Of a stretch of 64,000 nucleotides of DNA, positions 37,340 through 64,000 are shown piece by piece; positions within the stretch are counted from its first letter, which is position 1; the number at the start of each line of letters is the position of its first letter. Both the position numbers and the translations under genes were made by a program. The notes below the pieces were generated by a model that was not told the DNA's origin, did no database searches, and was given only the letters and a program-made list of their open reading frames with translations. Source of the stretch: Physcia stellaris (taxonomy: Eukaryota > Ascomycota > Lecanoromycetes > Caliciales > Physciaceae); the NCBI GenBank assembly GCA_018902385.1, contig JABSSW010000048.1, forward strand, positions 124,001 through 188,000, in the 5' to 3' direction.

Positions 37340-39635
37340 TCTCAACTTCAAATTCTGTACACTTAGTATTATCATCGATATAATCAATGAACTATTTTTA
37401 TTTCAACAAATTATGAATTCGAACAATTCGTTTTTTATCAATCAAATATTATTCGTTTCGTCATTTTCATTTTTTCAATGATTTTCGCATCGTCGTGCGC
37501 AATTTTTACGAAATCGAATACGTTTTTTGAAAAAAATGAATCAAACGAATTTTTTCGATTTTCAACGTTGAATTTATTGTTTTTTTATTGATTCATTATT
37601 TTGTTGTTTTTATTACATGAATTAATTCGCGTATACATATCGTTTTTTAATTTTTCAACGAATTTCGATGATTTTCGTCGTCGAATCAACGATTTACATT
37701 TTTTTTATCATTTCAATATCGTGCGCAAAACATTCATTTGATCGATATCATGATTCATTGCGATATTCGAATCATTACAACATTTTGTTTTATTTACGTG
37801 TCATCAAAACATTTCATCATGATGTTTTATGTTTGAATTATTGTTCAAACGATCAACAACATCAATCGTCATTCAAAATTTCGATTCGAATTTCACACGC
37901 AAATTGTGAATATTTGCGCACATTTTTTTATCAAATTGAATGCGTTATTTGCGTTAAATTTTTCAAATCGAATTTTCATATTCGAATCGACGTTATTTTC
38001 GATGAAATTTCATTGTTGAAAATTATGTTTTTACATTAAATTTCATTTTTTTTATTAATTTATTGTTAAATTACATTTGATTCGAATGTTTGAACATTCG
38101 TTTATTTTGTTCGTTCAAACGTTTGATCGTTTATTGATTTTTTCGTATCGTATAAATGAAAATTTGAACGAAATTTTGAATTCGAAAATCGTGTCATTGA
38201 TTCGTTTTTTACAAAACAAATAATTGATTTCGTTATTTTTTTTATCACACATTTTTTGTATTTTTCATTGTTCGTTATTTTATTTTCAATTTATTTTCGA
38301 TACACATATCAATACATTTTTTTGTTTATTTTATTTCATTGTTTGTTTCGAAATAAATCATACGATCGTCATTTCGAAAAAATCAAACAATTGACGCATT
38401 TGCTTTCGTCGTCGTTACACAATTGTTTATAAATTTTGACAATAAAAAAATGCATGAAACGAAACAAACACGATAATCATTTCATATTCACGTTCATTTT
38501 TTTAATAAACGTATTCAAATCAAAATGAAAAATCATTCGATCAAATTTTTGATTTACATCAAATCAAAAATTATTTTCAATTTCTAAATGTTTAATGAAT
38601 TATTTCGAACTTCATACGAATTCGTTTTATTAAAAATTTCATGACAATTGAAATCAAAACGAAAAATTATACGAACGAACATGTCGTCGTCAAAACGTTT
38701 GATTTGAAAATTGTTCAAAATCGTTATGATTTTGAAATCATCAAAACACATAATTTTTTATTTAATTTCGTGCATGTTTCACATCGTTTCATTATTTTGA
38801 ATCAAAACATTTTTTTGAAACGTTGAATCGTTATTGCATTTCAATTCAAAAAAAAAACGTTCGTTTTCGTCATGAATATCATTTTTACATTTTTAAATTT
38901 CAATTCAAAATCGAATGACGTTAAATCGTTCGTCGTTGTCGTGAAATTTATTCAAAATGATTTCATCATTATGAATGTCGAAATTTTCATTATTATATTC
39001 GTTATTTGTCAAAACATTTTGTTCGTCAAAATGAAACACGTTCATTTTTTTTTCGTTCAACAATAACGCAACAATTGAATCGAATTCAATACGAATGTCA
39101 ATAAATTTTGTTTCGAATTTCGTCATTATGCAAAAATTGTTCAATTTTTCAAATTCGTCGTCATGATTATACAAATTTCGAAATCGTCAAACAAACGAAC
39201 ACGTATTCATGATGATCAGACGTTTATTTTCACGTCAAAATTTTTCAAATATGTGAAATTATCGTGATGTTTTTTTTTAAATGCGTTGAAACAAATCAAA
39301 TTCATCATAATTTCAAACAATGTTTTTGACAAAATTTCAACATTGCATACAAAAATTGATTAAACAAAAACATGTTCGATTACGTTAAAAGCGAAACGAA
39401 TTGACAATCACAATCGATCGTCAATTGAAAACGTGTTTCATCGATTGTTCGAACGATCAATAACATGTTGTAATACGTTGATTCGAAAACAAATATTCAC
39501 GTTTGCAAAAACAAACATTTTATTCAATTATTTCGTTTTCACGAATTTATCGTTTTAATCGTCGATAAAATTCGTTTTTCGATTTCAGATTTGAACATGA
39601 TACAATTTTTTATCGTTTTATCAAATGAAAAAATC
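37340..39635. mobile_element. Unassigned degraded repeat DNA
   Basis: Same base-context skew as the identified retroelements, so almost certainly old repeat sequence, but I recognise no domain with confidence. Some - strand frames could be the continuation of the minus-strand element seen at 55.9-57.8 kb (they would be separated by the + strand element inserted at 39,636). That is a guess from nesting order. Confidence 0.4.
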
Positions 39636-40027
39636 TGTAATACGTTCGCGTTATCGAACAGTTAGTTCATGCGCTAATTCTGAATACGCGTCTGCGTAAC
39701 GCAAATGCTTGACATTAATAATGAATGTAATTCAAATGTAATTTAATTATAAACGCACGTTTAATAAAAACGTCATGAATTGATGTCATAATCATGACGT
39801 TAATCAAAACGTCATAACTATTACGTCAAATACGAATATAAATAAATTGTTCATTTTTTTTTTCGTTGAATTTCAACGATTAATTTTACATTTACAATAT
39901 TCATACGATGCTGATAGTTAATAATTGAAATTTATTAAATTTCACGTTTTTCAATAATTCGATGCGTTATCGTAAAATTAATACATTATTGAAATTTGTT
40001 TTACGTCAACGCGTTTAAATTTTTACA
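39636..40027 (+). repeat. LTR, family A, copy 1
   Basis: Begins TGTAATACG and ends TTTTTACA (TG...CA ends), 392 bp. It matches 55,482-55,872 along its whole length with roughly two dozen differences, nearly all transitions. A Ty3/gypsy internal region starts just downstream, so this reads as a 5' LTR. Confidence 0.85.
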
Positions 40028-43000
40028 ATTTTAATCGTTTCATTTTTCGAAAAAAAAAATTCGAAATTTATTAACATTATGATTGAATCAAATATCAACA
40101 TTTCAAATTTTAAAATAGAAAATCTTGATGATGTTTCAAATATTTCAAATAATTTTATTTTTTCGAATTGAAACGACGTGAATCAAATTCAACAAAACAT
40201 TTTTATTATCGACAATGCGACGACGCAAAACATTTTGAAACAAATGACAATTGTTTTTCGAAAATTTAACGATGAAATCGTTCAATTGCGAATTCAAATT
40301 CGAACAAATCAAAATGCAACGCAATTCGTTATCGCATCGCAAACGCAATCAATATCAATTGTATTTATCGTTCATTTCAAAAAGCGAAAATTCAAAAAAC
40401 AGTTTTTTTACAAAAACGAAAATGAAAACGAACATATTCGTTGATTTCGCGAAATCGAATTCGAATTTCTGACGTGTTTTAATTATTTTATGAATGATCG
40501 ATCGAAAATTTTTTGATGCATGTCATCGTTGCGAAAAAATTTTCAATTTCAATGATTCAATCGCATCGACAACGATAAAAATTTGAAAAATATTTTTTAC
40601 GATTATTATAAATTTTTTTTTTGAATTTGATAACAAATTCAATGAATCGTCGATTCGTCGTTTACGAAAATTGAAAACGAATTCGTCAACGTGCGAATCA
40701 AAAAATGTTTAATTTCAAAAATGAATTCGAAAAATACGAAATTCATTTGTCGTTTTTTGATGAAATTCATTCGATCAATTTTTTTTTTTGTAAATTATTG
40801 TCATCGTTGAAAAAAAAGTTGTTAAATATCGAAAAAATATCGATGAATAAAAAAAATTTGTTTGCGAAAATCGTCATGTTGAAAAAATTTTTGAACGCGA
40901 ACGACGAACAAATTCGCGTATTCAAAATAATCAAAACATTTTCAAACAAAAAAAAAAAATTAAAAAACAATTTCAAAAACAAAATCAACAACAAAATCAA
41001 CAACAAAATCAATCGCAAAATCGTTTCAATCAAAACATTTTTCACGATTTTGAACGCAATACGCATGCGAAAAACAAACGAAAACGCAATGAAAATGATC
41101 AAAATACAAAATCAACGTGTTATCGATGTCATCGCAAAAATCATTATGTTTTCGATTGTAAAATTGATATAAATGAATCGAATAATCAACATATCATCGT
41201 TGTCGTCAACGTCACATTTGAATCAAAAAAAAATCAAATTTCGCGAACGTTTCGCAAGCGAAACAAAAAAAATCAATAAAAATTCGAAATTTTATCGTGA
41301 TTCAAAATTGAATCAAATTTTTGAAAAATGAACGATTTGTTCGCGCGTTCGTGAATTTTGAAATCAAAATCAATTTTATCAATCAAATTTTTGTCATTCA
41401 ATGAAAAATGCAATCGATAAACGAAATTATTTTATCGTTATCGAATTTTTTGAATGAACAAAATCGTTATTGTCATGAAACGCATGAATTCATTTACAAC
41501 ATAATAAATTCGTGAAATCAACATCGTCAATGCAAAATTTTGTTTTATGCAATTGATTATATTGAATCGAATTTTATTTTGAATATGTTTATGTTGATTG
41601 TCGAAAACATATTAATGAATTCGACGAAAAACAATTGACGTTTCAAAATCAAATTCAAAAAATTTCAAATTGATACGTTTAAACAATTTGCAAAAATTTA
41701 AAAAATCACGAACAAATATTCGCGTTGATGTGTGCAAAAATCGAAAAACAATCGAAAAAACAAAAATTTAAAATTACGAAAATGTCAAAACAATTAAAAA
41801 ATTTAAAAAATCAATTTGACGACATTAAAACAAATATTTTATTCGAATTAAATAAAAATGATCATGTTATTGATTTGAAAAAAAACGAAAAATCGTCGTT
41901 CATGTCGTTGTATAATTTATTACAAAATAAATTAACGAAATTTCGACGTTACATCGAAAATGTTTTGATCAAAAAATGAATTAAACATTCAATTTTTTTC
42001 GTTGACGCGTCGATATTTTTTGTATCGAAAAAAAATGAAAATTTTCGTTTTTGTGTGAATTATCGAAATTTGAATGCGATGATTATCAAAAATCGTCATT
42101 CATTATTTTTAATCACAAAAACTTTGAATCGTTTTAATGATGTCAAAAAATTTATCAAAATCGATTTGAAAAATGTTTATCATCGAATTCGCATCAAACA
42201 AAACGACGAATGAAAAACGACGTTTCGCACGCGATATGAACATTTTGAATATCAAATCATGTCTTTTGAATTAATCAATGTTTCAACAATTTTTCAAATT
42301 TATATCAATAAAATTTTGCGAAAATTTGTCGACGTTATTTATGTGATTTATTTGAACGATATTTTGATATATAACAACGATTCAACGCAACATTGACGAC
42401 ATGTGCGTTTTGTGTTCAAACGATTGAAACAATATGAATTGTATGTCAATTTAAAAAATGCGAATTTGTCATCGATCAAATCGAATTTTTAAATTTCATT
42501 GTGTTCATTGAAAATGTACAAATGAATTCAAAAAAAATTCGAATCATTGAAAAATAATCGCAATTTAAAAATTATCGCGAATTACAAATATTTTTAAATT
42601 TCGTCAATTATTATCGTCGTTTTATTCATGATTATTCAAAATTAATTGCATCATTTATTGATTTGTTGAAAAACAATAAACAAAACAAAAAATTTGAATT
42701 TTTTGTTTGAAAAAAATCGAAATTGACGTTTCGTCGATTGCGCGATATTTTTACATCGATTTTCATTTTTTATCATTATGATTCAATCAAAAAAATCAAA
42801 ATGAAAATCGATATTTCGAATTTCGAAATTTCAAATATTTTTAATCAATTTGATGAACAAAATCATTGACGTTCGATCGCGTTTTGATCGCGAAAAATGA
42901 TATCGACAAAAATGAATTACGAAATTCATGATCAAAAATTATTAATTATAATTATGATTTTTCAACAATGACGACATTATTTCGAAAACGTTGCGCACGC

Positions 43001-44900
43001 GATAAAAATGTGATTTGATCACAATAATTTAAAAAAATTTATGAAACAAAAAAAATTTAATTCAAAACAAATCAAATGAATTTTTAAATTAATTGTTTAT
43101 GATTTCGAAATTTTTCATCGTGCAAACAAAATCAATTCGACAAATGAATTATCGAAACGTTCAAATTACGAAAAAACGTCGTCATTCAATATCAAATTTT
43201 TGTTCACGTTGCAAAATAAATTTGCGTTATCGTCAAAAAAACGAATCGATTTTGAAAATCAAAATTTTGTTTCGAATATCGCAACAAATATTCAATTATT
43301 CAAAAACAATACGCGTGCGAAAAACAAACGCGAAATGTTAAAAAATTTAAATTCATTGTTTCAATTGATTGATGTACAAATTGTCATTTTCAAAAAAAAA
43401 ATACGAAATTTATTTGAAAATTTTATGAAAAATCGCAAAAATCGATGAAATTTTTGATTAAAAAATTTCAAATTATCGACAAAACGATTAAAAAATTTGT
43501 CGAAAAAAGCAAAAAATCATTTCGTCGTCGACGCAACAAATTTTATTGAAAAATGAATTTCGAAAATTTTTTAAATTCAAAAATCGTTTTTATGTATTTG
43601 AAAATGCAAACAAAAATTTTTAAAAAATGTAAAAAAAACTTGTATAAAATTTTAAAAAAAAAATCACGATGATTGAAAATTTTTTTAAATTCAAAAATCG
43701 TTTTTATGTATTTGAAAATGCAACAATAAAAAAAATTCATAAACAAAAATCACGATGATTTTTTGACAAAACATTTTGATATTGATAAAATTGTGAATTT
43801 GATTTAACGAAAATTTTATTGATTCGTTTGCGCGAAACAAATTCGTTCATATGTCAAAATTTGCGACATATGTCAACGTATCAAAATTCATCGACATAAA
43901 TTTTATGAAAAATTCAAATTTTTATTTGTTTCGAATATTTTTGAAAAAAAATTATCATGAATTTTATTATCGATTTGTTTTTTAACAAACGTCGCGATGT
44001 CGTTTATGATTCGATTTTAATGATAATAAATCGATGCATCAAAATGATCAAATACATTTCGATTACGATCAAAATCGATGTCGTTGCGTTGACGAAAATT
44101 TTTTATGAAAAAATTGTTTTACGATTTGACGTTTCGAATGATATAATGAATGACAAAAATTTTGTTTTCACGAATGTTTTTTGATTTTCGATGTGTTATC
44201 ACGCACGCATTAAACGACGATTAAACATTGTTTTTCATTTTCAAACGAATGATTTAATCGAACGTCAAAATCAAATTTTTGAAACGTATTTGCGTACATT
44301 CGTCGACGCGAAACAAACGAAATGAACAAATATGTTTTCAATGATTGAATTTGTTTATAATAACGTTATTCATTTTTTTACAAATGTTTCGTTTTTTTAT
44401 TTAATGTATGATTATCATTCAGAAATTCATTATGTGATCGAAAACGATTTCAAAAAAAAAAAATATTCATTGCAAAAAATAAAATAAAACATTTGCATGA
44501 AATAAAAAAACGTTGATAAAACGTTTTGAATTCGTTGTCGCAACGCAAACGAAATATTACAATCAAAATCATGAATCAAAAAAATTCAATGTGAATGATT
44601 TAGTAATGTTCAATATCAAAAATTTTAAACAACGACGTTTTAACAAAAAAATGTCGCACAAATTTGTTGAATTTTTTCGTGTGAAAAATAAAATCGATGC
44701 GCAAACGTATCGTTTTATTTTATTCAATATTTATCGCATTCATAATATTTTTCATGTTTCGTTATTGAAAAAATATCATCATAAAACAAACGATAAGCAT
44801 GCGAAACAATTTATACAAATTTCAAAATTCATTGATGACGAAAAACAATGAAAAATTGAAAAAAATTTTGACAAAATGAATGATAAAAAAAATATTTGAT
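40028..44900 (+). mobile_element. Ty3/gypsy internal region (gag-pol relic), element A
   Basis: Fossil, many breaks, + strand. In order: gag-like frames from about 40,080; a CCHC zinc knuckle (CX2CX4HX4C) near 41,115-41,155; reverse transcriptase with a YLNDILIY catalytic-box relative near 42,340-42,375; RNase H; an integrase core near 43,957-44,184 (IIDLFFNKRRDVVYDSI...); an integrase C-terminal/GPY-like segment near 44,513-44,851 (FRVKNKIDAQTYRF, IHNIFHVSLLKKY). The domain order RT-RH-IN marks the Ty3/gypsy group. The LTR copy at 55,482 is the best candidate for its 3' end, with later elements lying between. Confidence 0.8.
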
Positions 44901-46360
44901 ACAAAATCAAATGATTTGATTGAAATTCGAAATATAATCAATGATTACATGAAAATAAATTCAAAAATATTTCAAATTTGATGAAAAAATACAATGAACG
45001 CGCGTCGCGCAAACGCAAACGACGTCATTGATCAATTCAAAATAATTTATTTTGTTTCAATGTCAACAATGATTTGATTTTTTCGTTTTATCGTTTAAAA
45101 CGATAAAAACGATAAAATCGTTCAATATCAACATATGATCACGAACAAAAAAAATAAACAAACGTCAAACGTCAAACAAAAAAAATTTATAAACAAAAAA
45201 AAATCGTTTATTTATCGCATATTTATTTTGAATCGAAATCAAAATCGTTCGAAATGAACGAATCGAAATTCGACGAATTCGAAAAATTCGAAATGTTCGA
45301 AAAATTCGTTTCATCGAAATTCATTTCGTTGATCGAAATCGCAAAAAAAAATTTTCGAAATTTTCGATTTTTGAATCATCATTTTTTGAACGAGAATCTT
45401 GTATTTAATCAATTGAAAATAAAAAATGTTTCAATCAACGAATTTTTCATCTTAATAAATGAACGTTTCGCGTTCGAAAATGAAAATAAAAATCGTTTCG
45501 CTTTCTCGAAATCATTTTGTTTATCGTCAATTTCTGTCAAAGTTTTTTTTCAAAAATGATGAAAAATCTCATCAATCTATTTTTTCTGTTTATTTAATTT
45601 TTAATTTTTTTTTTCATTTTTTTATCTTTTTGTTTTTTTATTTGTTTATCTGTTCAGCTATCTTTTATTGTCTATCTTGATGAATAGATAAATGAATAAA
45701 TAAATAATAATAAATTGATAAAAAACGTGAAAAATAACTTCATGTTTCGCATTTAATTCGAATTTGTTTCGAACAATAACATGAATTGTTTTTTTTCAAT
45801 AAAAATATTCATGACAAAAAGCTTTCAGAAGATGAAAATCGAAAAATTTCCGAACTGAGTTTCGCGAAAACGAGAACAGTTTCGGAAAGACGAGAACGAA
45901 TTCGAAAAAATTTCCGAATAGAAAAATTCAGTTATCGAACGCGAAACGTTCATTTATTAAGATGAGAAATTCGTATATTGATAATCTTTTTTTATCGTCA
46001 ATTGCGCATTTTTTTTCATCAGAAAATTCATCAATTTCTCATTTTTTTTTCAATTTTTTCATTTTTTTCGTCAATTTCATTTTTTTGCTTTTTTTTTTCA
46101 GTTTCATTCAACAAATCAATAATTTGTTTTTTCGTTTGTCAATCGTTCGTCAAATTGATTCGTCAAAATCGTGATACGATTGATTGTTTGATTTCGTAAT
46201 TGATTGTTTCAAATCAACAATCGATTTTTTTTGTTTTTCGATAATCGAAATGTATTCGATTTTGCGACGTCATTTGTTTCAAATCAACAATCGCATTTTT
46301 TTTCGCATTTTCGATGACGAACGAAAATGAATTGAAATTCTGATAAACGTTCGATTCTTT
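44901..46360. mobile_element. Degraded repeat DNA between elements
   Basis: Includes a + frame at 45,254-45,559 (FLNENLVFNQLKIKNVSINE...) that could be a retroelement accessory reading frame, then T-rich low-complexity sequence to about 46,200. Parentage is unclear: it may be the 3' part of element A. Confidence 0.4.
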
Positions 46361-48296
46361 TTGCATCGAAATTCGCGCACGATTTTTTCATTTGTTTTCG
46401 AAATCGTTTTGAAAATTTCGAAATATGATTTGTTAACGTCGTCGCAGACGTTTGAGAATCATATCTATTTATTTAGCAAATCAGCATTTGTTTTCTGTTT
46501 CGATGATAGCTACAATAACATCTCGAATCAGATTGTTTCGAGATATTTATTATTTACATCATCATTTCTATTGAAGAATTTTTCGAAATTTTTATCTATT
46601 TTTTTGCAAATCGATCGTTTTTTTCAATTTTCGCGATACGAACGATGCATTGTTCAGAAACTCAAAAGCAAACAGATTTCGAAATCGCGAAAATGGAAAT
46701 TTTGAAAATCAAACAACGATTGCAAATTCTACGTCAACGACGAACTCAAAGAAAAATTATCGAAATTGCAAAATCTATATCAACATTTCGTGATATCGAT
46801 ATATTCGATTCAACACTCATATGTGATATTCAGAAGTTCGATTTATATAATCAAATAACAGATTTTTTGCAACATTTTGAGCGTCAACAAAGTCAACATC
46901 AATATCGAAAATCAGATGTGTTCGCTTTGTTATTCAAATGTTTTCGAAAATTTGCATTCGCATGATTCAAAAATCAAATCTTTATCATCATACAAGATTT
47001 CGATCGCGATTTAACATGTGCATTTTTTACTATTTTCATTGAATTTACAACGAAAACATTTGTTTCGTTCGTTTCACAATTTTCGACTCAGTATCATTCG
47101 TGCGTTGAATGTTTCGCTCAATTCTCGTCAATGATTCGACTTTTAGAACATATCAAACAAATCAATTGTTCGAAAGAGATTTGCAAACATTGCGATGCAA
47201 ATTTCAATTTCAAAAACAAGTTTCACGAGCATATACGCGAACATTATGTTCAGAAATTTATTATTTCGTTTGTCACATCAAAAAACTCGAATTTTCGATT
47301 TTTCGCATCAGAATTCACGTACAAAATTAAAAAGAAGTCAACAGTCATTTGCTCGTCTGTTTCGTTTGTTTCGTTTATTTTTTTTGCAACATCAAAGTCG
47401 ATATCATGATTTGCATCGATATCTGAATCAATATTATCGAAATGTTCGAGTTTCTCGATTGCGACACATAGAATCACATCAGAATCGATGAAGAAACTAT
47501 CAATTTCATTTACATTTTCGATTTCATTTTTTCGAACATCTGTATCAAAACATCAGAAATTTTATTTCATTATTCATGATTTGATTCGCATGTTTCGTAA
47601 AAAATTTAAATCATTTGATTTGCAACAACATCAAAATCGTCGTTTTTTTCGCAAAGCGTTGACGCTCGTCGATTTATTTATCAATTACGAATTATCGCTT
47701 ACTTTTTGTTTGCAATCAATCAAAAGACATCGATTAATCAAATTTCGAAAAACTCGAATTCGAAAAATTTTCAGCAACATACGTTTGCGAAATCGATTCG
47801 TTTTGTTTTTGTTTTGTCAGAAAAATCGATCTTTTCGTCATACAAAAAAGTCAAACATCTTTTACATTTCGTTGCAATCAAGATTCTCATTCGCATGATT
47901 TCGATTTACGTTTTCGTTTGCGTTTTCGTCGTTTTTTCGATTTCTGATTTCAGATCACGTTTGTTGCATTTGTTTCGATCATTTCAATTTTCGCAATGAT
48001 TTGTTCGTTTATCAACGTTCTAATCAACGATATTTCTCGAATCGTCGATCGATGAGAAAAATGAAAAAAATGATTAATCGTTTCGAAACGAAGCTGAAAA
48101 AAACGAAAAATAATGTGACGAACGTATTATGTATTGAAATTTTGATAAATGTTTAAATTTTTATTTTATCACATCGAGATTCGAATTCGAATTTCGTTAT
48201 GATCAAATCATTTACATATGATTTGTCAGATTCTCATAGTTAATTTTGCAATCTAAAATTCTGTTGTTAATTCATATTTTTGCATAACATCTTACA
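46361..48296 (+). mobile_element. Partial LTR element of family B (3' part), element E
   Basis: Fossil. It carries the same capsid-like and C2H2-like modules as the complete family B element (for example FLQHFERQQSQHQYRKSDVF near 46,870, and CKHCDANFNFKNKFHEHIRE near 47,180). It ends in a purine-rich tract and an LTR copy at 48,114-48,296 (TGTGACGAACG...TTACA). No 5' LTR was found, so the left end is arbitrary. Confidence 0.6.
48114..48296 (+). repeat. LTR, family B, truncated/diverged copy
   Basis: 183 bp, starts TGTGACGAACG and follows the family B LTR with internal losses. The 40 bases before it (GATTAATCGTTTCGAAACGA...) match those before the 3' LTR at 55,186, which fixes it as a 3' LTR. 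Confidence 0.7.
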
Positions 48297-49060
48297 TGCG
48301 CAAACAAATACATATCGAATAACAAAAATTTGAATCGTGATGTTGAAAACAATATTTTTCGCAAATTTTCAAAATATCGCGAACGCACGCATGACGATCA
48401 AAAAACGTCATACATGCGAAATTTTCGCAAATTATGACATGTTAATTTGTTGTTGTTGTTTGCGTTCGTGACGCGTGCGTTTCAAAATATTTACGTCGAT
48501 TTTTTTGAAAATCGATCATAATTTGAAAGTAAATAAATTGTCGTATTGATAATTATATACATAAACAAACGTTGCGCAAACGTTGAAAAGTATTTTACGC
48601 GAAAAAAATTGTGATAAAAAAAAATGAAAAAAAAAAATGCGAATAAAAAAATTGTTGATAAACAATATCGTGAAACGATCGACACGTTGTTTTCGCAATC
48701 GACGAAATTTCAAGATTTATCAACAAAAAAATTCGCGTCGACGTTTCGATGAAATTGAATTTGAATTTCGTCATTCAAATTTTGATATTGACATTTCGAT
48801 TTTCGATTTTGAAACATTGTCATTCAAAATTTGCATTGAAAGCATGCTTTACGATTGCGCAATTACATTGAAAATTCTTTTTTTTCTGAACAAAGATTTG
48901 AAAAAATTTTAACGAATTTTTGAACAAACGATACATAAACGCAATGCGATATCGCTCATGATATTTCTTGAAAAAAAAATTTTTTCGTTTGCTTTCGAAA
49001 TTTTGAAATTTTTTTGATACGAATTTCAATGAATTTTTTGAAATTTTACAGTCAAAACAT
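48297..49060. mobile_element. Degraded repeat DNA, left flank of element B
   Basis: Unrecognised hypermutated sequence; its last five bases (AACAT, 49,056-49,060) are the left target-site copy of element B. It is probably part of the older element into which B jumped. Confidence 0.5.
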
Positions 49061-49274
49061 TGTGACGAACGTGCATCGATTTCAACATCTGAAATCAACA
49101 TCTGATCAGTCATTAGAATTAACATTCTTATTTTATCACATCGGAATTCGGATTCGAATTTCGTTATGATCAAATTTTTTACATATGCTTTGTCAGATCT
49201 CAATAGTTAGTTTTTCACTTCGATATTCTCGTGTAATTATGTAATAGTATCATATTTCTGCATAACATTTCACA
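49061..49274 (+). repeat. 5' LTR of element B
   Basis: 214 bp, TGTGACGAACG...TTTCACA, preceded by the AACAT target copy. Very similar to 55,186-55,400. Confidence 0.9.
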
Positions 49275-52200: not shown

Positions 52201-53849
52201 ATCGACTCGCTTTTTCGATTTCATGTACTCAAATCAGTATGCAAAGCAGAAAAGAAGTCAACAACAAAAAATGTGACAATTTTGTTTGTTTCGCAAAAGT
52301 TGCAAATCTCTATTCAAAAACATCAAAAATCGATGTTCAGAAACATTCAGTTGTCAATTCATTTTTCACGAATTTTACATTCAATTCAATATGCGAATCG
52401 AATGAAAAATCAGCAATTGCATGTTCGTTTTCGTCGTTGAAATCATCAATTTTTTTGCAACATCAAAAATCTGATATCAAATACGAAAATAATTTTGCAA
52501 ATCGATTCGTCGAAACGTTCGAATTTCTCGATTACGACATCGGAAATCACGTTCGAATATGCGAAAAATACATCAGATTCGTTTACAAAAATCGCAGAAA
52601 TTGCAGAGATTTTCGCAAAATCGATCGCAAATATTCGAGTTCAAATTGTTCACATTCGCGCAAGACGAGAAGTCGAATGTTCAGATTTCAAGTTACAAGC
52701 ATTGAATTTTGCATCAAAATCGATGAAGAAATTGTTAATTCAACAGATTGTTTACGTTCGAGCGATTTGCAAGCGTTGCAAACAAAATTTCAATTTCAAT
52801 AACAAGTTTCACGAACATATACGCGAACATCATGTTCGAAAATCTGTCAAAAATTCTGTTCTTCGAGTTTTTGCATCAGAATTCACATACAAAATCATTG
52901 AGAAGTCAACAAGCATTTGTTCGTTTGTTTCGTTTGTTTCGCAAAAATCATTTATTTTTTTTGCAACATCACGAAGTCAAACATTTTATTTTGCAACAAT
53001 TTTCAAATCGATGTCATCAATTCGTTTGAATTTTTCGATTGCGTCACACGAAATCTCATCAAAACGCGCGAAAATTGCAACAATGCTAATCACACGAAAT
53101 TTTACATCAAAACGAGTCGAAATTGCTGCATTCAATTGTTCGTTTACATTTTCGATTTCATTTTTTCAAACATTTGTATCGAAATCTTATTTCATTATGA
53201 ATGATTTGAGTCGCATCTTTCATGAAAAATTTAAATCATTTGATTTGCAACAACATCACAATTGTCGTTTTTTTTTTGCAGAGCTTCGACGTTCGTCAAT
53301 CTCGCTTCGCATTTACGAAAAAGTCTCATCTCATTATCGAAAATCTGTTCGAAATGTTCGATGAAAAATTCAGAGAAAAAAGTTTATTTCAGAGTCGAAA
53401 CAACGTATCTTTTCGAGCATTTTTAAGTCAAATGCAAATCATCGTTTATTTCAAGTTTACAGTCAATCGAAAGTCGTCAGTAAGTCAGATTTCGAAAAAT
53501 TCAAAATCGAAAATTTCGAAACAGCACATGTTTGCGAAATCAATTCGTATTGTTTTTAGCAAAAGTTTGCTTGATGTTTTTTGCATTCATTTGAAACTTT
53601 TTGTCGAAACTTTTTTTTTCATTTTCATATTTTTTCGTCTTTTTTCGACTTTTTTTCTTGTTTTCGCATTCGTTTCGATCATTTTCGTTGCAAGAATGAA
53701 TTGTATTAGCGTTTATCAACAAGTTATTTCGATCATTGATCGTGTCATTCAATAAAAGTCACATTTGTCACTTCGAAACGAAGTTGAGAAGAGACGAGAG
53801 ATAAATGTTTATATTAATGTTTTATTATTTCATCGAAATTATCTATAAG

Positions 53850-54241
53850 ACTCGCGAGAATTATTTATTTTTCAGAAAATTTATTACATACACGTTTTAT
53901 TAAATAAATCGTACACATCGATTATCGCATGCGTTCAAATATCAATGCGTTAATCGTTGTTACGTTGATTTTACTAATGTGATGAAATTGTTTGTCTCAT
54001 AATATAATCGATTTGAAATTTTCGAAGATTTTTAATTGTTTGCTTACTAATTGTCGCCGAAACTACTCGCGAAAAATTGTATGAATTGATCATTTTTCAG
54101 AAAGTTCATTACGTTGATGCTTTATTGAATGCAATGTACACATCAATTTTCGCATATGCAGAAATATCAATGCGTTAATCGTTGTTGCGATGATTTTATT
54201 AACATGATCAAATTGCTCGTTTTATCGTATAATCGATTTGA
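53850..54241 (+). repeat. Direct repeat pair inside element B
   Basis: Two similar blocks at 53,850-54,015 and 54,064-54,241 (shared words ACTCGCG, ATATCAATGCGTTAATCGTTG and ATAATCGATTTGA), about 214 bp apart. Just upstream, 53,640-53,815 resembles the terminal part of the same element near 48,113 and 55,185, suggesting an internal partial duplication. Confidence 0.65.
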
Positions 54242-55185
54242 TGTTGCAAGAATTCAACATTTACATTAATGCGAAACGTTTACATTAATGTTTTCATTAC
54301 ATTCAAAAGTTCGAGTTTTCGATTCTTTACATTCTAAATTACGTATTAAATTTTGAAGAAACAAGTTTTCGATCGTTTGTTTATTTTATCATTTACGTCA
54401 TCGTTTGCATTTTCAGCGAGTTGATTGCAAATCAGTCTTTTTATCAATTGCAATAATTTCGACTTCAAATATTTCGCATAAATTTGCATTCGACATCGAA
54501 TACAAATATTTTTATTCATATCGAAAGTTTGATAGAAGCGAATCGCTATCCTGATCAGAAATTTCGAGCATTGATCAATTTTTTCGTCTCGATCAATTTG
54601 CTTCAAGATTTTCGAATTTCAGATATTTTCAAATGATCTATTATATCATTTATTCACGAATATCATGACTCATGTTTCGCAATCAGATTTCGAACAGAAT
54701 TTCGAAAATGTTTTTATCTTTTCTATTTTGTATTTGTATTAATCACTAACGAACATTGCATGCATGCTTTGAAATTTACAGAAGAAAGAGCGTTTTTGTC
54801 ATACAAAAAAACACGATATTTTTGCATATTTCAATTGTCTTAATAATTTTTTTCACATCTCGATTCAAAACGCAAACTTTCTGAAAGATTTTCATGTTCT
54901 GAAAAAACGATCGTTTCGTCATATTAAACGTCAGATATTTTTGACATTCAACGATTTTTGCAAATACAAAATCGTTTAGATTTGCAGAAGTTTATTTCGT
55001 CGATTTCGTCGTTTTCGTCGTTTTCATCTCAAATTTTTGTACGTTTTCACGATTGTCGCGTTCGCTATGAACTTTACACATTTACGAACAAGTCGTCAAG
55101 ATCACGTATTCTGCCGATCGATGAAAAGAAGAAAAATCAATGAATTAATCGTTTCGAGACGAAACTGAAAAGAAACGAAAAATAA

Positions 55186-55400
55186 TGTGACGAGCGTGCA
55201 TCGATTTCAACATTTGAAATCAACATCTGATCAATCATTAAAATTAACATTCTTATCTTATCACATCGGAATTCGAATTCGAATTTCGTTTATGATCAAA
55301 TCTTTTACATATGTTTTGTCAAATTTCAGTAGTTAGTTTTTCACTTCGATATTTTCGTGTAATTATGTAGTAGTATCATATTTCTGCATAGCATTTCACA
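55186..55400 (+). repeat. 3' LTR of element B
   Basis: 215 bp with TG...CA ends, preceded by a purine-rich tract and followed by the right target copy AACAT. Confidence 0.9.
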
Positions 55401-55481
55401 AACATTTACATGTTGTTTTTGTCTATTGCATTGATATTGTTTTTATGCATTGAAAATCAACGCATTGAAAAAAAAAACAAT

Positions 55482-55872
55482 TGTAATACGTTTGCGTTAT
55501 CGAACAATTAATTTATGCGTTAATTTTGAATACGCGTTTGCGTAACGCAAATGTTTGACATTAATAATGAATGTAATTCAAATGCAACATAATTATAAGC
55601 GTACGTTTAATAGAAACGTCATGAATTGATATTATAATCATGACGTTAATCAAAACGTCATAATTATTACGTCAAATACGAATATAAATAAATTGTTCAT
55701 TTTTTTTCTCGTTGAATTTCAACGATTAGTTTTACATTTACAGTATTCATACGATGCTGATATTAATAATTGAAATTTATTAAATTTCACGTTTTTCAAT
55801 AGTTCGATACGTTATCGTAAAGTTAATACATTATTGAAATTTGCTTTACGTCAACGCGTCTAAGTTTTTACA
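55482..55872 (+). repeat. LTR, family A, copy 2
   Basis: 391 bp, TGTAATACG...TTTTTACA, preceded by a GAAAAAAAAAA purine tract as expected for a 3' LTR. Element B lies only 77 bp before it. The flanks of copies 1 and 2 (AAATC and AGTTC) do not form a clean target duplication, so the pairing as one element is inferred from order and orientation. Confidence 0.8.
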
Positions 55873-57806
55873 AGTTCGAAAATTTAACTGATTGATCGAT
55901 GATTTGTTTTTAATGAAAAAAATGTTAATTTTAATATCGTTGTTCTTGATGCGACGATGTTCGTTATTCATGATTTGAAATTTGCGAAAATAATCGTCAA
56001 AAATCTTATAATCGTTCAAAACAACGTCGAAATGTTGAAATTTCGTTGTGATTTTTTCATTTTTCTTGAACAATTGATTGACTAAAAAAAATTCGAAATA
56101 AAATTCGTTGAAAAATTCAATGAATTTCATTTTCAAATCATCGTATTGACGACGAACGTTTCGAAAATGATCAACATCGATATAAATGTCGTTCAAAAGT
56201 TTGAAAATTTGATCAATTGATTCGAAAAAATTGCGTTTAATTTCACGTCGAATATCGATATATTTCGCAAATTTTTTTTTTGTTCAATCAATAATTGCAA
56301 ATTTTTTTTTGAATTTATCGACGTATCAATCGAAATTGATTTTCAATTTATCGATGCATTTATTTTTTCAGATATCGTAACGAATGTATTCGAATGTATT
56401 GAAATTTTTATGTTCAAAAAAAATAAAAAAGTCAAAATGTCGAAACGAACGCGTTTTAAAATTAAAACGAAATTTTTCAACAAAAAAATCAAATTGTTTG
56501 AACGAGCGCTTTTTAAATTCAAAACGAATTTTTTTTTCAAAGTTAAAAATTTTTTCAAATTTTGATAATTTAACAGTTTTTTTTCGTTGTTTATTTTTAT
56601 TTTCACGAATTCGTTAAATTTTGAAAAATTTATTACATTGAATTTGAACAGCAAAAATTTCGATTTTGACGACACGCAAAATTTCGTTGAATTCATATTT
56701 TTTCTTATTATGATTCGAAATTTTGATTTTCATGTTTTTTATTTGAAAATTTCAGATTCGAATGACGATCATTTTTCGATTTCGATTTCGTCGAAAAATT
56801 TCGAAAATAATTTTTAATTCGTCGAAATGACTGACGATCATTGATTGAAATTGTTTTTTCGAAAAAATATTTATCGAATTAACGATTTTGAACGATTCAT
56901 TTTTATCAAATTCATCGTCATTTTGATTAAAATTTATGACAAAAAAAATGTCGATGATATGTTGTTCGAAATTAATGATTATTCGATCAAAAACATACAC
57001 GTTCAATTGTGTAATTTCGCTAAGTAATAATCGATTTTTCAAATTGATTTCGAAAAAAAAATTTGAAAAAATCATGATTGTGAATTGAAATCGAATAATT
57101 GTTGAAACAAAAAAAAATGAACAAAACAATGATTTAAATAAATTTGATGATTGAATTTCATTTAAAATAACAAATTCGATGTGATGTTGAATGAAATTTC
57201 TAAATGTTTTTTTATGATGAAACAAATAAATGTTGAATAAAAATGTTTGTTTGTTGATGTTTTTTTTGATTTGATAATTTTCTGATTTTCAAACACGAAT
57301 GTTTCGTCAGAAATGATAAAAAAAAATTGTTGTATTGTGAATCGAAATTATCGCGTGAATTCGTTTGTTCTGAACGTTTTTTAAAACAAAGCAAACGAAT
57401 TTATTATGTTTCGTTTTTTTCAATTCACAACGAATTTATTATGTTTCGTTGTTTTCGTTGAATGATCAAAATCAAATTGAATTTATTATGTTTTTATTCG
57501 TTCACTGAATTTAATTGAAAAAAGTTTTGTTTATTTGAATGTTCGCATATCATGAACGAACATGAAAAAAAAAATGATTTCGATATAATGTGAAATGTTA
57601 TGCAATGATATGATATTATTACATAATTACACGAAAATATCGAAATGAAAAACAAATACATGAAAATTTGTAAAAACATATGTAGAAAATTTGATTTCTT
57701 GAATGCGTCAAAACGAATTTCGATTTTAACATTCGATGTGATAAAATAACGATATTAATTCGATGTTAATTTTGTCAAATGTTGAATTCGATGTACGTTC
57801 GTCACA
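55873..57806 (-). mobile_element. Minus-strand LTR element C: 5' LTR and gag relic
   Basis: Fossil, many breaks, read from 57,806 downward. It begins with a family-B-like LTR (57,589-57,806 on the - strand). Gag-type frames follow at 57,225-56,752, about 56,700-56,340 and 56,196-55,873; the last resembles a Ty3/gypsy capsid (FRNVRRQYDDLKMKFIEFFN...). It stops exactly where LTR A copy 2 begins, as if cut by that insertion. Confidence 0.65.
57589..57806 (-). repeat. LTR related to family B, minus strand
   Basis: On the - strand it reads TGTGACGAACGTACATCGAA...TTTCACA, 218 bp, with the same ends as the element B LTRs. Similarity to element B continues beyond it into the leader (both have AACATAATARA words). 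Confidence 0.75.
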
Positions 57807-60800
57807 TGCGTATCAAACATGAAAACGAATGAAAAACAATTTTTCGTATTCGATATAATCATTTCGAATATAACGTATTTTTTTTCGATTTCATTAATGT
57901 TTCGACGACGTTTCAAAATTTCATCAATCGAATTTTGACGATTCGTTTCGATATTAACGTCATAATATATTTGAACGATATAATAATTTATTCGATAAAC
58001 GTCGAAATTCATGTCAACGATGTCAAATGAATTTTTGATCGTTTTTAAAAAAAATTATATATTGTTTTTGAGAAATGCAAATGATTCGTTGACGAAATAA
58101 ATTTTTTGAATTCGTCGTTTTATTCAAAAAAATATTATTGCAAAACAAAAAAATCGAAATTATTAAAAAATGATTTGTATTTCGCAACGTTTTCGACATT
58201 ATGCAATTTTTCGATATCGTTAATTTTTATCGACGATTCATTAGACATTTCAATAAAATTGTTGAATTTCTGATCGTTATGTTAAAAAAATCGCAAAAAT
58301 TACGAACAAATATTCGTAAACGTAAACGAAATCAAAATCGAAATCGCAACAAATTATCAAATATTCACATTTTTTTGATCAGCGAAATATTGAAAATTTT
58401 CAAACGATTTCGCAAAACATTTATCGAAATATCAATTTTACGTCATTTCGATTTCGAATCTGTTATTCGAATCGAAAACGACGTATTCGACAAAATTATC
58501 GAAATCATTTTATGTCAACAAAACGACGAAAATTATTGACATTTTGTTGCGTATTTTCACGCAAAATGATTTCGATCGAATGCAATTACGAAATTCATGA
58601 CAAGAAATTGTCGATTATTGTGATTTCGTTCAAGCAATGAAAACATTATTTCGAAAACGCAAAAAAACAAATTTTTGTTTTTATTGATTATTGCAATTTG
58701 AAACAATTTATAATCACAATTAAATTGTCGTCACGTCAAATTCGATGAATTCAAAAATTAAATCGATATAATTTTTTAATTGATTATTGTTTCGATAACA
58801 AAAATTTTGTTAACGAATTTTCAAAACGATTCGATCACATAATGATTATTGAAAAAAACGTCGAAAAAAATCGTCAAATTTTAAAACAATTGCAAAAATC
58901 ATTGATCGCAAATTCGAAATATTTCGAAAAAATGCGAATAAATGCGATCAAAATCATGAATACGATGCATATCATGAAACGATTTATGAATACGATATAT
59001 AACATCAAATGTCAATCGCATTTAAATGATTTAATAATCGAATCAATTAACGTTATTTCGAAAACATTTAATTCAAAAAATTCAAAACGAAATTGAATTT
59101 CAATCAACGTTGTTTCGAAAATATTCGATTCAAAAAATTCGAAACATTCGATTGAACAAAAATTAAACGTGACATTCATAAAATGAAAATTTTTTGTATT
59201 AAAATTAACGATTGTATTTGAATGCGCAATACATAAAATTCGAATACAAATTGTTTTACGAAAAAAAAAACATATAACGACGAATTAACATTTTCATTGT
59301 TGAATTTCGTTCGAGATTTGATCGTTAAAAATCAATTTGTTTTTGAAATATATCGAAAATTAATTATTTCGAAAACAAAAACAAATCATTGACAACACAA
59401 AAATGAATTTTTGTATTACGACGACGTCGTTTACATTTCAAAAAATTTGCGTAAAAACGTTATTCGTGTCAATCACGATAATTCGTTCGTTGATTATTTC
59501 GACATTAAACGAACGTTGAAATTAATACGTCGAAAATAAAATTAATCGAATCAAAATTTTATCGAAATTTTTGAAATGCAACAACAAATTAAAAAATATC
59601 GTGAAACATGCGTCGTTTGTAAACGAAACAAAATTTCACGACACAAATCATACGACGAATTTTTTTTTCAATTTCAAAATTTAAATGAATTGATTTTTTT
59701 ATAAATTTCGTGACAGAAATTTTTTCAAATAAAAAATGAAATGAAACAATTTACGATTCGATTTTAATGATTGTGAATCGTTTAACGAAAATAATTTATT
59801 ACATATCAATGATTAAAACGATTTTCGCAAAAAAATTGATTGAAATTTTATTTCGCGAAATCATTCGATTTCACGATTTTTTTTCGTCAATCGTTATCGA
59901 CAAAAATTTCATCTTTACATTCAAATACAACGATGCATTGTGTTACGTTTTGAAAATCAAACGTAAATTGTTAATCGTTTTTCATTTTCAAATCGATAAA
60001 TAAATCGAACGAATAAACAACGTCATGAAACAATTTTTTCGCATTTTTGTCAATTTCGAACAAAATAATTAAATAAAATTGTTGTTTATAATCGAATTCG
60101 TTTACAACAACAAACACGCATTCACAAACATTTTTTCGTTCGAAATCATGTTTGAATATTCGTTTCGCATATTTTTCGAAAAAACATAAAACAAAAAAAT
60201 TAAATTCAAATTCGCAAAAAAACACGTTGAACATTTAATTGAATTATTTCGAATATTGAAAAACAATTTATTCGTGACACAACAACAACAAACGATATAT
60301 AAAAACGAACGCACGAAATCAATGTCATACAATATCGAAAATTACGTGAATTTGAACGATAAAAACATAAAAATTGAAATGAAAATTCTTTGAATCATTT
60401 CAAATTTTAAAAATTTTAAAAAATTAAATTTATCGTTTAAATTTATTCAAACGCTGACGTATTTACGACGTTTTTCACGTTTTTTTGAAAAATTTAATAA
60501 AAAAAAACGCACATACGTCACATTTTTCTAAATTTTCGTATTAAATTGAAAATATTAAATTCGACGAAAACATGAAAATAAAAATCACGAAAAAATTTTA
60601 TGAAATCGAAATCATGAAAAACAACAAAATTCTCAAAACAAATGAAATTTCAAACAAATTTTACAACGAATTCGATTTTTATTATTTGATAAAATGAAAA
60701 AATTATGAAAACGCGATTTGAAAATTTGTATCGTTTGTTAAACATATTCGAAATTTTTTACGACAATTTCACAACGAAAATTCAAAAAAATTTGATGTCA

Positions 60801-61000
60801 ATAGAAAAACAAATCATCGAAAATCACGAAAAAAATAAATTAAAATATTTATTGCATTTTAATACATTTTCGTTTTTAAAATTTTTGTGTGTTATTTATT
60901 GTTTAAAATTTACGACGCATAAAAAATTGAATTGTGTTAAAATTTTTTTCAAAAATTGTTGTTCGATTTAATCGAACAAAAAATCATTGAATAAAAAATG
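57807..61000 (+). mobile_element. Ty3/gypsy pol relic, element D
   Basis: Fossil, many breaks, + strand. Reverse transcriptase is entered in mid-domain right at the boundary with the minus-strand LTR, with a YLNDIIIYS catalytic-box relative near 57,965-57,995. RNase H follows (VNFYRRFIRHFNKIVEFLIV near 58,220; ILRHFDFESVIRIENDVFDK near 58,440). The integrase core is near 59,767-60,003 (MIVNRLTKIIYYISMIKTI, YNDALCYVLKIKRKLLIVFH). The C-terminal part fades out by 61,000. Its 5' half is missing, presumably displaced by the insertion of element C. Confidence 0.75.
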
Positions 61001-64000
61001 TGAAATGAAATAAAAAAAAATTCGAAATTTGAATATCAATGCGATCGCGATTTGTCAGAATTCAGATTTCGAAATTAGTTTTATATTCTTGTCACGTGAT
61101 TTAGGCGATCTTGGCGTCTCAATATGTATATAGCGAGCTCAAATTTTCAGCATTCTTAACAATACAATGCGTTTTATCTTTTACTTTTTGACAGATTATG
61201 AGCTCGAAAAAACGAATAATTTATCTGTAATCTTCGTATCAGATTAATCGTCTAAGCGAGCGAACGTCATTGTCTTCATGTCAAAATTCAATACATTTTT
61301 ATCGAAATTTCTTCTTTAAAGACTCTTCAGAATCAAAAGCTCATTGCATTGCAATGAGAAAGTACAACTTCAAAAACATGAGTTTTGAACAAGAAAACAA
61401 ATTTCAAGAATGTCATCGAAATTCTTTCGTCAAATTTGAACAAGAACAGATTTCAAAAATGTCGAAAACAAAAAACTGAACAGACGATTAAATTTATTTT
61501 TTATTCGCGACTTGTCGTTTTCGCTAAAAAGCGCATTGATTAATGAAATTGCAAACAAACAAATCATTGATGAATTCATTCAAACGATATGTATCAATCA
61601 TGTGAAACGATTGATATCGCAATTGATTAGCGAGATCTGAAGCGCGTTTAGCTTCGTCAAAATACGAATGTCGAGTCGTTAAAAACATGCAAAATCTTCT
61701 CAATTTCAATTTTTTCAGCTCATTTGAAATCGTATTGCGAAGAATCAACATCACAAAAACTCGAGCAATTGATTTCGAACAGTCGAGATTCGAACTCAGT
61801 CAATCTCTTTATTATTTTCAGTCAGGCGAATCACAGTTGCGACTCACAATTATCTCGTATTGATTTATCAGAGTCAATAATCGATCAATTGTTGAACGAC
61901 TTCAAAAACAAAGTTGAACTGAGACGACAGATGATTTTGATCAAAATTTTAACGCAATTGCATATTTCAATATCACGAGCTTTGATTCACTCGATAGTTT
62001 TTCAATCATTCGATTTGTCAAGAAGAAACAAATAAACTGACTCAAAAAGACAAATTCGAAAATTAAAAACGTGTCGCATTGAACATTGTTGCAATTAGTG
62101 CAAAGTCGAATCAAATTGAAATCACTCAATCATTCAATATTAGGCGAAATTCAATTTTCTGTTTTTCAAAGTTCAATCAAAAAATGATTGACATTTCAAT
62201 AAATCAAACATCTGAAACAAGTTCAGACTCAGTAGCGATTGACAATGTCAAAACGAAAACAGAAATCATTGTCGCATCATCAAAAACTGAATTTTCAATT
62301 ATCGTGAAAATCGAAATTATTGTCGCAACAAAAACTGAACTTTCAAACAATGTTGAAACAAATGCATATAATCAGACACTTTTTCTCGAAAGAATTGACA
62401 AAAAACGAAAACGTTACAAAATTATTTCAACATTTGAAGCTCAAGTTTATTCTCAACAATTTATATTTACGCTTTCTTTGCAATCATCTAAAAAACGATT
62501 CAGATTTAATTTCGAGAATCTTCAGCAATTCAATTGAAATGTGTTTATTGATCAACTCTTTTCAATCAATCTTATCAGCAGAGTAAGAGTCATTCGTTAT
62601 TTATACGTAAAACATTTCGAAACAAAGTTTTCTGACACTGTACACGAAATTGCACAAATCATAATTGATCATTTTCGCGAGTCAAACGAGAAAAACACTG
62701 AGAATTACGAGTATCAATTTTTTTTTTTCAAATTCGTCGAACTTTCATTTATAAGTTCATTATTTAGTTTTCAAATATCGAACTCATCGAATTCTTTCGA
62801 TTTCTTTCGCTTAATCGCACGAACTTTTTTCAAATTTTCAAAATTATCATGTTCAATTCGGCAACTCAACTCGACGTCGAAAACGTTTTTTTCATCGTCT
62901 TCGTTTTCGTTTTTTTTTCTCTTAGAATCATCATCAAAATCAGTGAGTCTCAGAGATATCTCAAGTGAAATCGAGAAATGAAAGACGTTTTTAAGTGAAC
63001 TCGTTTGTGAAAATATATTCAACGAACGTTTTCAACTGAGAATGAAAAAAATGAATTGTGTTGTATTGTTTTACGTACAGTTGTGAACGACGACTTGTAT
63101 CATAACATTAAAAATACGAATATGATCAAAAACGTTTGAAAAAAAATCATCAAAATTTGCAAATTCAAGAAATTCAATGCGCTCATGACTATTTATAGCA
63201 AATTTGAATTTCTCAAAATCTTTTTTTGCGTCGATATCAATGAATATGAATTCAAATTTCGAAACATCATTAACGAACTTGTCATTTATTCATTCAATTC
63301 AAAAATGAATGAAAATTGACTTATTTACAAATATTTTGCGAATCTTTCAAAATTCGCTCGTTTCTTCATTGATCGCTGAATTTCGAAGCATGAATTTTTC
63401 GACAATGATCAAAAAAATGATTTCAAACACGTTTTTTCGAACGTTATTCATTCATACGAAATTCAATGCATCAATTTTTTTGAAATTGCGATCATCAACG
63501 ATATTGATTTTGTTTTTTTAATTATCGATTTTGTTTCAAATTTCATCAAATCGTTTCAACAAAACGTCATTTTCGAACACATCAAAATTATCATTCAAAA
63601 AATCAAATGATGCGATCATTGTCAAAAATTTTATCATGATATTATCGAATGCATCATCAAGCATTTTCATTTTGTCGTTGTCAAACAAATTCGAAAAAAA
63701 AAAAAAAAACGACGCAAACGCAAAAATCAACAACGCAACGATAATCAAAATCAAAATCAAAATCAAAATCAAAATCAGAATCAGAATCAAAATCGAACGA
63801 GAAAAAACAAAACAAAAAAAACAACAAGAATAAAACGAAATTCGACGAAAATTTCTGAAAATCTGTGAACGAAGCGATAATCACGCATTCGATTTTCGTC
63901 GAAATTGTTGTTTTTTCGAAATCAATCAATTTTGACAAATTCATTGTCGTCAAAATTTTTTTTTTCATTTTTGTCATCATCAAGATTTTGAATTTCAACA
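61001..64000. mobile_element. Unassigned repeat-like DNA, less mutated patch at 61.06-61.25 kb
   Basis: The stretch 61,060-61,250 (GTCACGTGATTTAGGCGATC...) still contains CpT and GpG words and may be an LTR or leader. The frames between 61,270 and 62,981 (for example 62,079-62,537 and 62,541-62,981) show CpT/ApG more often than the pol relics but match no family I know. From 63 kb on the sequence is again strongly depleted. I could not assign it to an element. Confidence 0.4.
63741..63795 (+). repeat. (ATCAAA)n short tandem repeat
   Basis: About nine hexamer units ATCAAA with two ATCAGA variants, after an A-rich run. Confidence 0.9.

Follow-up and report, generated by a model that had tools for sequence, protein, structure and literature searches.

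Base composition and features of the window

We analyzed a 64,000-bp stretch of the genome of Physcia stellaris, referred to here as the window (bases 124,001–188,000 of contig 48, JABSSW010000048.1; assembly GCA_018902385.1, 43,974,083 bases in 147 contigs), in which a block of genes is followed by a long AT-rich block that has lost most of the C residues lying 5′ to a pyrimidine. The original prediction had placed the AT-rich stretch from position 37,340 onwards and had attributed it to a hypermutation resembling repeat-induced point mutation (RIP) that hits CpT and CpC (together CpY, counted here with their complements) and spares CpA and CpG. The depletion is indeed present, but its edge lies further in, between 37,392 and 37,393. 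From position 1 to 37,392, the GC content is near 50% with no marked dinucleotide bias, and in 1-kb windows past this point it is 21–32%. The edge is sharp, since the last CpY before it stands at 37,392 and the first after it at 38,403, with 247 C/G in between; within the gene block, no CpY-free gap exceeds 61 bp.

Over 37,401–64,000, only 793 of the 7,116 C/G sites are CpY, compared to an expected mean of 3,560 (standard deviation 42, minimum 3,467, 200 mononucleotide shuffles). The odds ratios on both strands of the AT-rich block (from 37,601) are 0.02 for CC, 0.30 for CT, 1.26 for CA, 3.20 for CG and 0.40 for TA, against 0.96, 1.07, 1.13, 0.84 and 0.69, respectively, in the gene block (1–36,900). 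CpC is lost ahead of CpT, as seen in the trinucleotide counts of the same AT-rich interval, where both strands together hold no ACC or CCC, 2 CCA, 4 CCT and 13 CCG, next to 774 CTN sites (CTT 290, CTG 214, CTC 167 and CTA 103). Our recount of five 60-base lines from this block agreed exactly with the earlier figures (43 C, followed by A in 17 cases, G in 25, T in one and C in none). The intensity is patchy: the regions at about 37.6–45 kb and 56–61 kb are almost without CpY, and at about 45.6–55.6 kb and 61–63 kb CpC is gone and some CpT is left.

The standard indices of RIP are built on CpA and TpA, and it had been anticipated that they would miss or invert such a pattern. This is what we observed, as TpA/ApT is 0.41 and (CpA+TpG)/(ApC+GpT) is 1.47 in the AT-rich block, and the published thresholds are ≥0.89 and ≤1.03, respectively (PMC2621366; the papers cited by PMC number are drawn on here through excerpts of their text). 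Both values fall on the side that would be scored as no RIP, and a test relying on these dinucleotides returns a false negative here. An index of CpY, (CC+GG+CT+AG)/(TC+GA+TT+AA), is 0.059 in the AT-rich block versus 0.915 in the genes.

The features of the window are collected in Table 1. The stretch at 46,837–54,397 resembles a degenerate element with internal duplications and C2H2-finger-like units (ICKxCxxxFNFxxKxxEHIRxH), and the zf-C2H2_4 matches in the surrounding second block fall under the Pfam cut-off. Pfam scans of 10 of the 23 listed open reading frames (ORFs) of the AT-rich block gave weak matches only.

Table 1. Positions of features, counted from the first base of the window (LTR, long terminal repeat)
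Feature	Position	Strand	Remarks
Gene block, without CpY loss	1–37392		GC about 0.5; ORFs: GATA-factor, photolyase-domain, histidine phosphatase, Ipi1
AT-rich block	37393–64000		CpC/CpT and complements largely gone, CpA/CpG retained; extends past the window into L012–L014
Start of the AT-rich block, 1,010 bp	37393–38402		0 CpY among 247 C/G
LTR-like direct repeat copy 1 (family A)	39628–40031	+	17/25 C/T-type differences from copy 2 precede T
Degenerate reverse transcriptase	42025–42456	+	PF00078, E 1.1e-19; 2 in-frame stops, both TGA
Longest CpY-free stretch	42264–43508		291 C/G, 0 CpY
Second block, less saturated	45601–55600		CpC gone, CpT partly left; internal repeats translate to C2H2-finger-like motifs
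Repeat copy	49054–49274	+	13/15 C/T-type differences from its partner at 55179–55400 precede T
Partner of 49054–49274	55179–55400	+	Repeat copy
LTR-like direct repeat copy 2 (family A)	55475–55876	+	92.6% identical to copy 1
Weak RNase-H-like reverse transcriptase fragment	58174–58536	+	PF17919, E 0.003, below cut-off

Direction and context of the C-to-T changes

Composition by itself leaves room for a foreign origin of the DNA, and the long blocks of uniform composition would fit such a source. However, the same change is carried by a ribosomal DNA (rDNA) unit and by a transposon family of which an intact relative is also present in this genome, and the mutated rDNA copy refutes this explanation, to which we assign practically no probability. 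The rDNA unit (L033; contig 41, 44,399–47,552) spans the large-subunit, 5.8S and small-subunit regions and is itself mutated. It was the only 5.8S match among the 39 scored of 2,644 candidates, and the assembly may lack a functional rDNA array. As a reference we used those Rfam columns in which both the C and the adjacent base are strictly conserved, with lower-case columns set aside, in two sets of rows: those judged well aligned, and all printed rows holding conserved columns, in which poor or cut rows were restored. In the well-aligned rows, C was replaced by T at 49/52 CpC, 34/60 CpT, 0/41 CpA and 0/48 CpG sites (Fisher p 7e-32); with all printed rows, the counts were 54/63, 37/69, 2/54 and 2/52, and 47 of the 54 conserved CpA were kept. 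Methylation induced premeiotically (MIP) or decay of CpG methylation is rejected as a source, given the CpG-to-T count of 2/52 in conserved columns and the CpG odds ratio of 3.20 in the AT-rich block.

The same rule is found in a Copia element. The alignment of an intact copy (L040) to a mutated one (L045) covers 3,443 columns with 7 gap characters, and C became T at 429/458 CpC, 321/415 CpT, 26/479 CpA and 23/422 CpG sites. The changes comprise 421 G>A and 379 C>T, against 77 of all other types (19 T>C, 15 A>G and 43 transversions), and they occur on both strands, where 77–94% of the sites in CpY contexts are affected. Pooling the reverse transcriptase region of four mutated copies (L045 and three others) gave 318/328 for CC, 251/298 for CT, 43/365 for CA and 36/388 for CG. 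A further pair, L040 and L042, shows the same order over 205 bp only (CC 17/28, CT 11/27, CA 5/21, CG 1/24) and is not leaned on. The polarized rDNA and Copia comparisons support the RIP-type process preferring CpY that had been proposed; CpA, proposed as the context whose dominance would speak against it, is not dominant in the repeat alignments, and CpC is hit harder than CpT.

In the window, our recount of the two family A copies again matched the earlier one, with 17 of the 25 C/T-type differences before T. In more diverged pieces of this family (72–76% identical), whose polarity is unclear at that distance, the C/T differences fall in every context, and T follows no more often than A or G. 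The contrast between the two copies could also arise under ordinary CpA-type RIP if CpA were already saturated and only a secondary CpT signal were left between copies. Saturation of this kind may explain some published CpT signatures: in Colletotrichum truncatum, five families are called CpT with a CpA index of 0.08–0.12 (PMC6180176), and this low index leads us to suggest that CpA was consumed first there. In P. stellaris, by contrast, CpA is unconsumed, as indicated by the index of 1.47 and by its retention in the rDNA unit (47/54) and in the Copia pair (443/479), and this retained CpA refutes the explanation; its probability is negligible.

It is highly improbable, too, that methylated CpY in heterochromatin was simply called as T during sequencing. 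This point was judged from the assembly alone, which leaves some room for such an artefact, but the changes lie on both strands at 77–94%, and the copies differ among themselves, mostly at CpT. Moreover, miscalls caused by methylation should be offset by reads from the opposite, unmodified strand.

The base 5′ to the CpY hardly matters, since conversion between L040 and L045 is 178/208 for ACY, 195/227 for CCY, 165/199 for GCY and 212/237 for TCY (83–89%), and at CC sites it is the first C that is lost (CCA 133/140, CCG 89/91). These observations bear on editing of repeats by a cytidine deaminase, either of the APOBEC/AID type or a fungal one such as the OTT_1508 family. Clustered C-to-T changes on both strands would fit such an enzyme, and the genome holds three stop-free OTT_1508-type matches. 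Enzymes of the APOBEC/AID type, however, read the 5′ base, and APOBEC3G would take the second C of CC, contrary to what we see. In addition, a six-frame search of the genome, made exon by exon, found no match to APOBEC_N (PF08210) at E 0.1. APOBEC-type editing is therefore rejected on the uniform 83–89% conversion for all four 5′ bases together with this missing match, and deaminases as a whole are very unlikely to be responsible, although an OTT_1508 enzyme would be compatible with these data. A runs test on the strand of the changes in L045 (C>T versus G>A) gave 319 runs versus 400 expected (standard deviation 14); we leave it unused because clumps of CC and GG by themselves reduce the number of runs, and this deficit may hide a real clustering by strand.

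Finally, the extent of conversion differs strongly between copies. With a few percent of background divergence from L040, L045 has 750 of 873 CpY converted (86%), compared to 2–5% in pairs of intact transposable elements. This bears on a slow deamination of 5-methylcytosine in heterochromatin, in which methylation would be restricted to CpY and no RIP burst would be needed. Several points speak for it: the graded loss of CpC over CpT suggests a rate process, a clear DIM-2-like gene is present in the genome, and DIM-2 is described in a 2026 review as methylating mostly non-CG sites, with a preference for CpT (PMC13297926). On the other side, the 86% against 2–5% looks all-or-none, and CpA is spared here although a table of the same review assigns all CpN contexts to DIM-2 (PMC13297926). 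We consider slow decay unlikely: given comparable background divergence, the all-or-none conversion is better explained by a targeted burst, without being a proof of it.

Stop codons and extent in the genome

An attack on CpY can create a stop codon only from TGG, which becomes TGA, while TAG and CAG are converted to TAA and CAA, respectively; classical CpA-type RIP makes TAA and TAG out of Gln codons. Among the PF00078 and PF07727 matches genome-wide (287 matches, 14 of them stop-free), the in-frame stops are 651 TGA, 134 TAA and 6 TAG, a dominance of TGA in line with the TGG-to-TGA change predicted for CpY attack. The two families agree, with 250 TGA, 33 TAA and 3 TAG in 150 PF00078 matches (10 stop-free; 150 scored of 527 candidates) and 401 TGA, 101 TAA and 3 TAG in 137 PF07727 matches (4 stop-free; 150 scored of 165 candidates). 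From L040 to L045, all 24 Trp TGG codons became stops (22 TGA, 2 TAA), CAA was retained at 14/14 and CGA at 11/12 positions, and CAG became CAA at 16/20. Part of the TAA stops may reflect a minor activity on CpA.

We then looked at twenty 10-kb stretches of the genome. Six adjoin the window (contig 48), four come from the interior of large contigs and ten from contig starts, so that the sample leans to contig ends. Of the 100 sampled 2-kb windows, 46 fall below 34% GC, spread over 10 contigs. CpA and CpG are retained in all 46 (0.35–0.59 and 0.33–0.56 of C, respectively), and the CpC share is ≤0.02 in 41 of them and 0.03–0.12 in the remaining five. TpA/ApT ranges from 0.29 to 0.70, and none is TpA-rich as in classical RIP. 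The loss of CpY is present on every AT-rich contig sampled, and the sampled gene blocks are clean.

As a marker of the affected DNA we used the word TTTCGATTTT, selected for being common in the AT-rich sample. This sample (118.6 kb) contains it 63 times, the gene sample (140 kb) never and the whole genome 5,046 times; the genome-wide count of the reversed word, in which ApG and CpT are present, is 99. Scaling from the count of TTTCGATTTT in this small, non-random sample gives a rough estimate, which may be low, of about 9.5 Mb of affected DNA in the 44 Mb assembly (22%).

A probable RIP-type process, its candidate enzymes and its relatives

Wherever the identity of a mutated stretch was tested, it proved to be a transposon copy or the extra rDNA unit. 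Taken together with the direction and context of the changes, we think it probable that a RIP-type, repeat-targeted C-to-T process hit the repeats of this genome, often until saturation, with a preference for a 3′ pyrimidine (CpC over CpT) and hardly any action on CpA and CpG. Judged by sequence comparison, the process appears to work like RIP and is a candidate member of this class.

Several observations weigh against so simple a rule. Six of the 25 C/T-type differences between the family A copies precede A (of the others not before T, one precedes G and one A/T; five more differences are not of the C/T type). When every column of the well-aligned rDNA rows is counted, conserved or not, the pattern is noisier (CC 157/226, CT 92/149, CA 17/131, CG 33/172). 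The sparing of CpA, as originally predicted, holds in three of the four mutated copies, where CpA is changed at 16/274 and CpG at 22/292 sites, but the fourth (L048; contig 15, 146,102–146,787) is changed at 27/91 CpA and 14/96 CpG, so CpA is not immune. The CpA changes in L048 favour CAT (15/22 versus 12/69 at other CpA; Fisher p 2e-5, with the context picked post hoc), and a weak second activity or a late wave on CpA is likely. Lastly, the intact pairs L035/L036 (95.0% identity) and L043/L044 (96.8%) are repeated and yet show no CpY bias, which means that targeting is incomplete or has ceased; either these pairs are escapees, or the copies were made after the process was silenced, or the process is rare. 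L035/L036 and L043/L044/L049 are reverse transcriptase elements with long ORFs and 89–97% identity.

A dependence on the 3′ base fits DNA methyltransferases and not APOBEC enzymes. A PF00145 profile search of the genome gave four matches at three loci. One of these (L030; contig 3, 338,823–342,998) is DIM-2-like, matching Neurospora crassa DIM-2 (9bap) with a phmmer E of 4e-181 in two stretches (residues 219–904 and 2–176), and the similarity reaches beyond the catalytic domain. In an alignment made to the N. crassa enzyme alone, R1145, T1164, T1166, T1167 and D1173 are conserved, Ala replaces N1170 and Ile replaces R1175 (the chain number is taken as the number of the paper plus 2, inferred from W1153 and R1145). 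In N. crassa DIM-2, N1170 makes contact with the non-target strand at position +1 and R1175 intercalates, and the R1175A change abolished activity (PMC11315935). The matches at the other two loci, L029 and L031, are 40% identical over 174 amino acids and have a common N-terminal stretch, and both hold motif-X-like text. From their motifs, we tentatively call both RID-like. The L029 match holds two TGA, taken to sit in introns, and the RID-like genes appear to be split by introns. NCBIfam scans of the methyltransferases gave a broad dcm model below the cut-off and one weak match, and nothing else. The OTT_1508-type deaminase matches lie on contigs 38 (375,945–376,130), 34 (399,643–399,828) and 17 (41,218–41,403).

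The mutator would probably be a C5-cytosine methyltransferase of the DNMT family, encoded by one of the two RID-like genes or by the DIM-2-like one and altered in how it reads the +1 base. Such an enzyme would act on paired repeats and read the +1 base, accepting C best and T next and rejecting purines. It may act in the sexual cycle, as in Neurospora, and the mutations would come in bursts and not by slow decay. In a review table, catalysis by RID in vitro is given as undetected (PMC13297926). We lean slightly towards a RIP lineage with a rule complementary to that of Neurospora, in which the enzyme recognizes a 3′ pyrimidine and rejects purines; a duplicated RID-like enzyme or a DIM-2 with changed DNA contacts would have become a CpY-specific mutator, with a weaker second activity touching CpA, chiefly CAT.

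The likeness to RID-dependent RIP in N. crassa lies in C-to-T changes on both strands, in repeats and extra rDNA as targets, in AT-rich blocks and in the sparing of genes. In Neurospora, however, CpA is preferred and TpA is raised, whereas in P. stellaris the attack falls on CpC and CpT and spares CpA and CpG, and TpA is at 0.40 of expectation. The preference for CpA that is usual, though not universal, in RIP is absent from the rDNA unit, the Copia pair and the pooled copies (CpA 2/54, 26/479 and 43/365, versus CpC 54/63, 429/458 and 318/328). Mutated rRNA pseudogenes likewise are extra rDNA units with C-to-T and G-to-A changes, but there CpA/TpG is the most mutated context, with CpT raised in N. 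crassa (PMC5555474), as opposed to the 2/54 conserved CpA changed to T here. APOBEC3/AID enzymes also leave clustered C-to-T changes, but they read the 5′ base, and here the 3′ base decides.

Prominent CpT-to-TpT changes are shared with several fungi. CpT is affected next to CpA in Magnaporthe oryzae, Botrytis and Sclerotinia and is predominant in M. oryzae and B. cinerea T4 (PMC4352252), and it accompanies CpA in Anisogramma (PMC10998396). CpA is a co-target in these fungi and, judged by its low index, depleted in the C. truncatum families called CpT. The excerpts of the three papers (PMC4352252, PMC10998396, PMC6180176) do not list CpC among the targets, whereas here CpC is the most completely lost and CpA is retained. 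In RIPCAL analyses, CpT stood out in N. crassa Tad1 and in short rDNA repeats of S. nodorum, with a link to RIP doubted there, and S. nodorum repeats were depleted of CpC together with CpA and CpG, with CpA dominant (PMC2621366). In a survey of Ascomycota, CpT-to-TpT was a dominant form in alignments of RIP-capable control genomes, with indices showing classical RIP (PMC7882544). The TpCpG mutation of Microbotryum and rusts resembles the present case in that transposons undergo C-to-T changes outside the CpA context, but it targets CpG (PMC4352252, PMC2621366), which is strongly kept here (odds 3.20). In the open text of PubMed Central we found no description of a process that chiefly targets CpC and spares CpA and CpG, and the novelty of the CpY rule is provisional.

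Across 1,239 species of fungi, a 2025 survey concluded that CpA is the preferred context common to RIP-like defences (PMC12543289); an estimated fifth of the P. stellaris genome follows the opposite rule. If this reading is true, nonsense mutation would arise nearly only via Trp codons (TGG to TGA). Trp codons are the main kill sites here, with Gln and Arg codons spared. The CpN preference offers direct access to the identity of the mutating enzyme and to its way of reading DNA, and the residues responsible for target choice could be located by setting these methyltransferases against their counterparts in CpA-type species.

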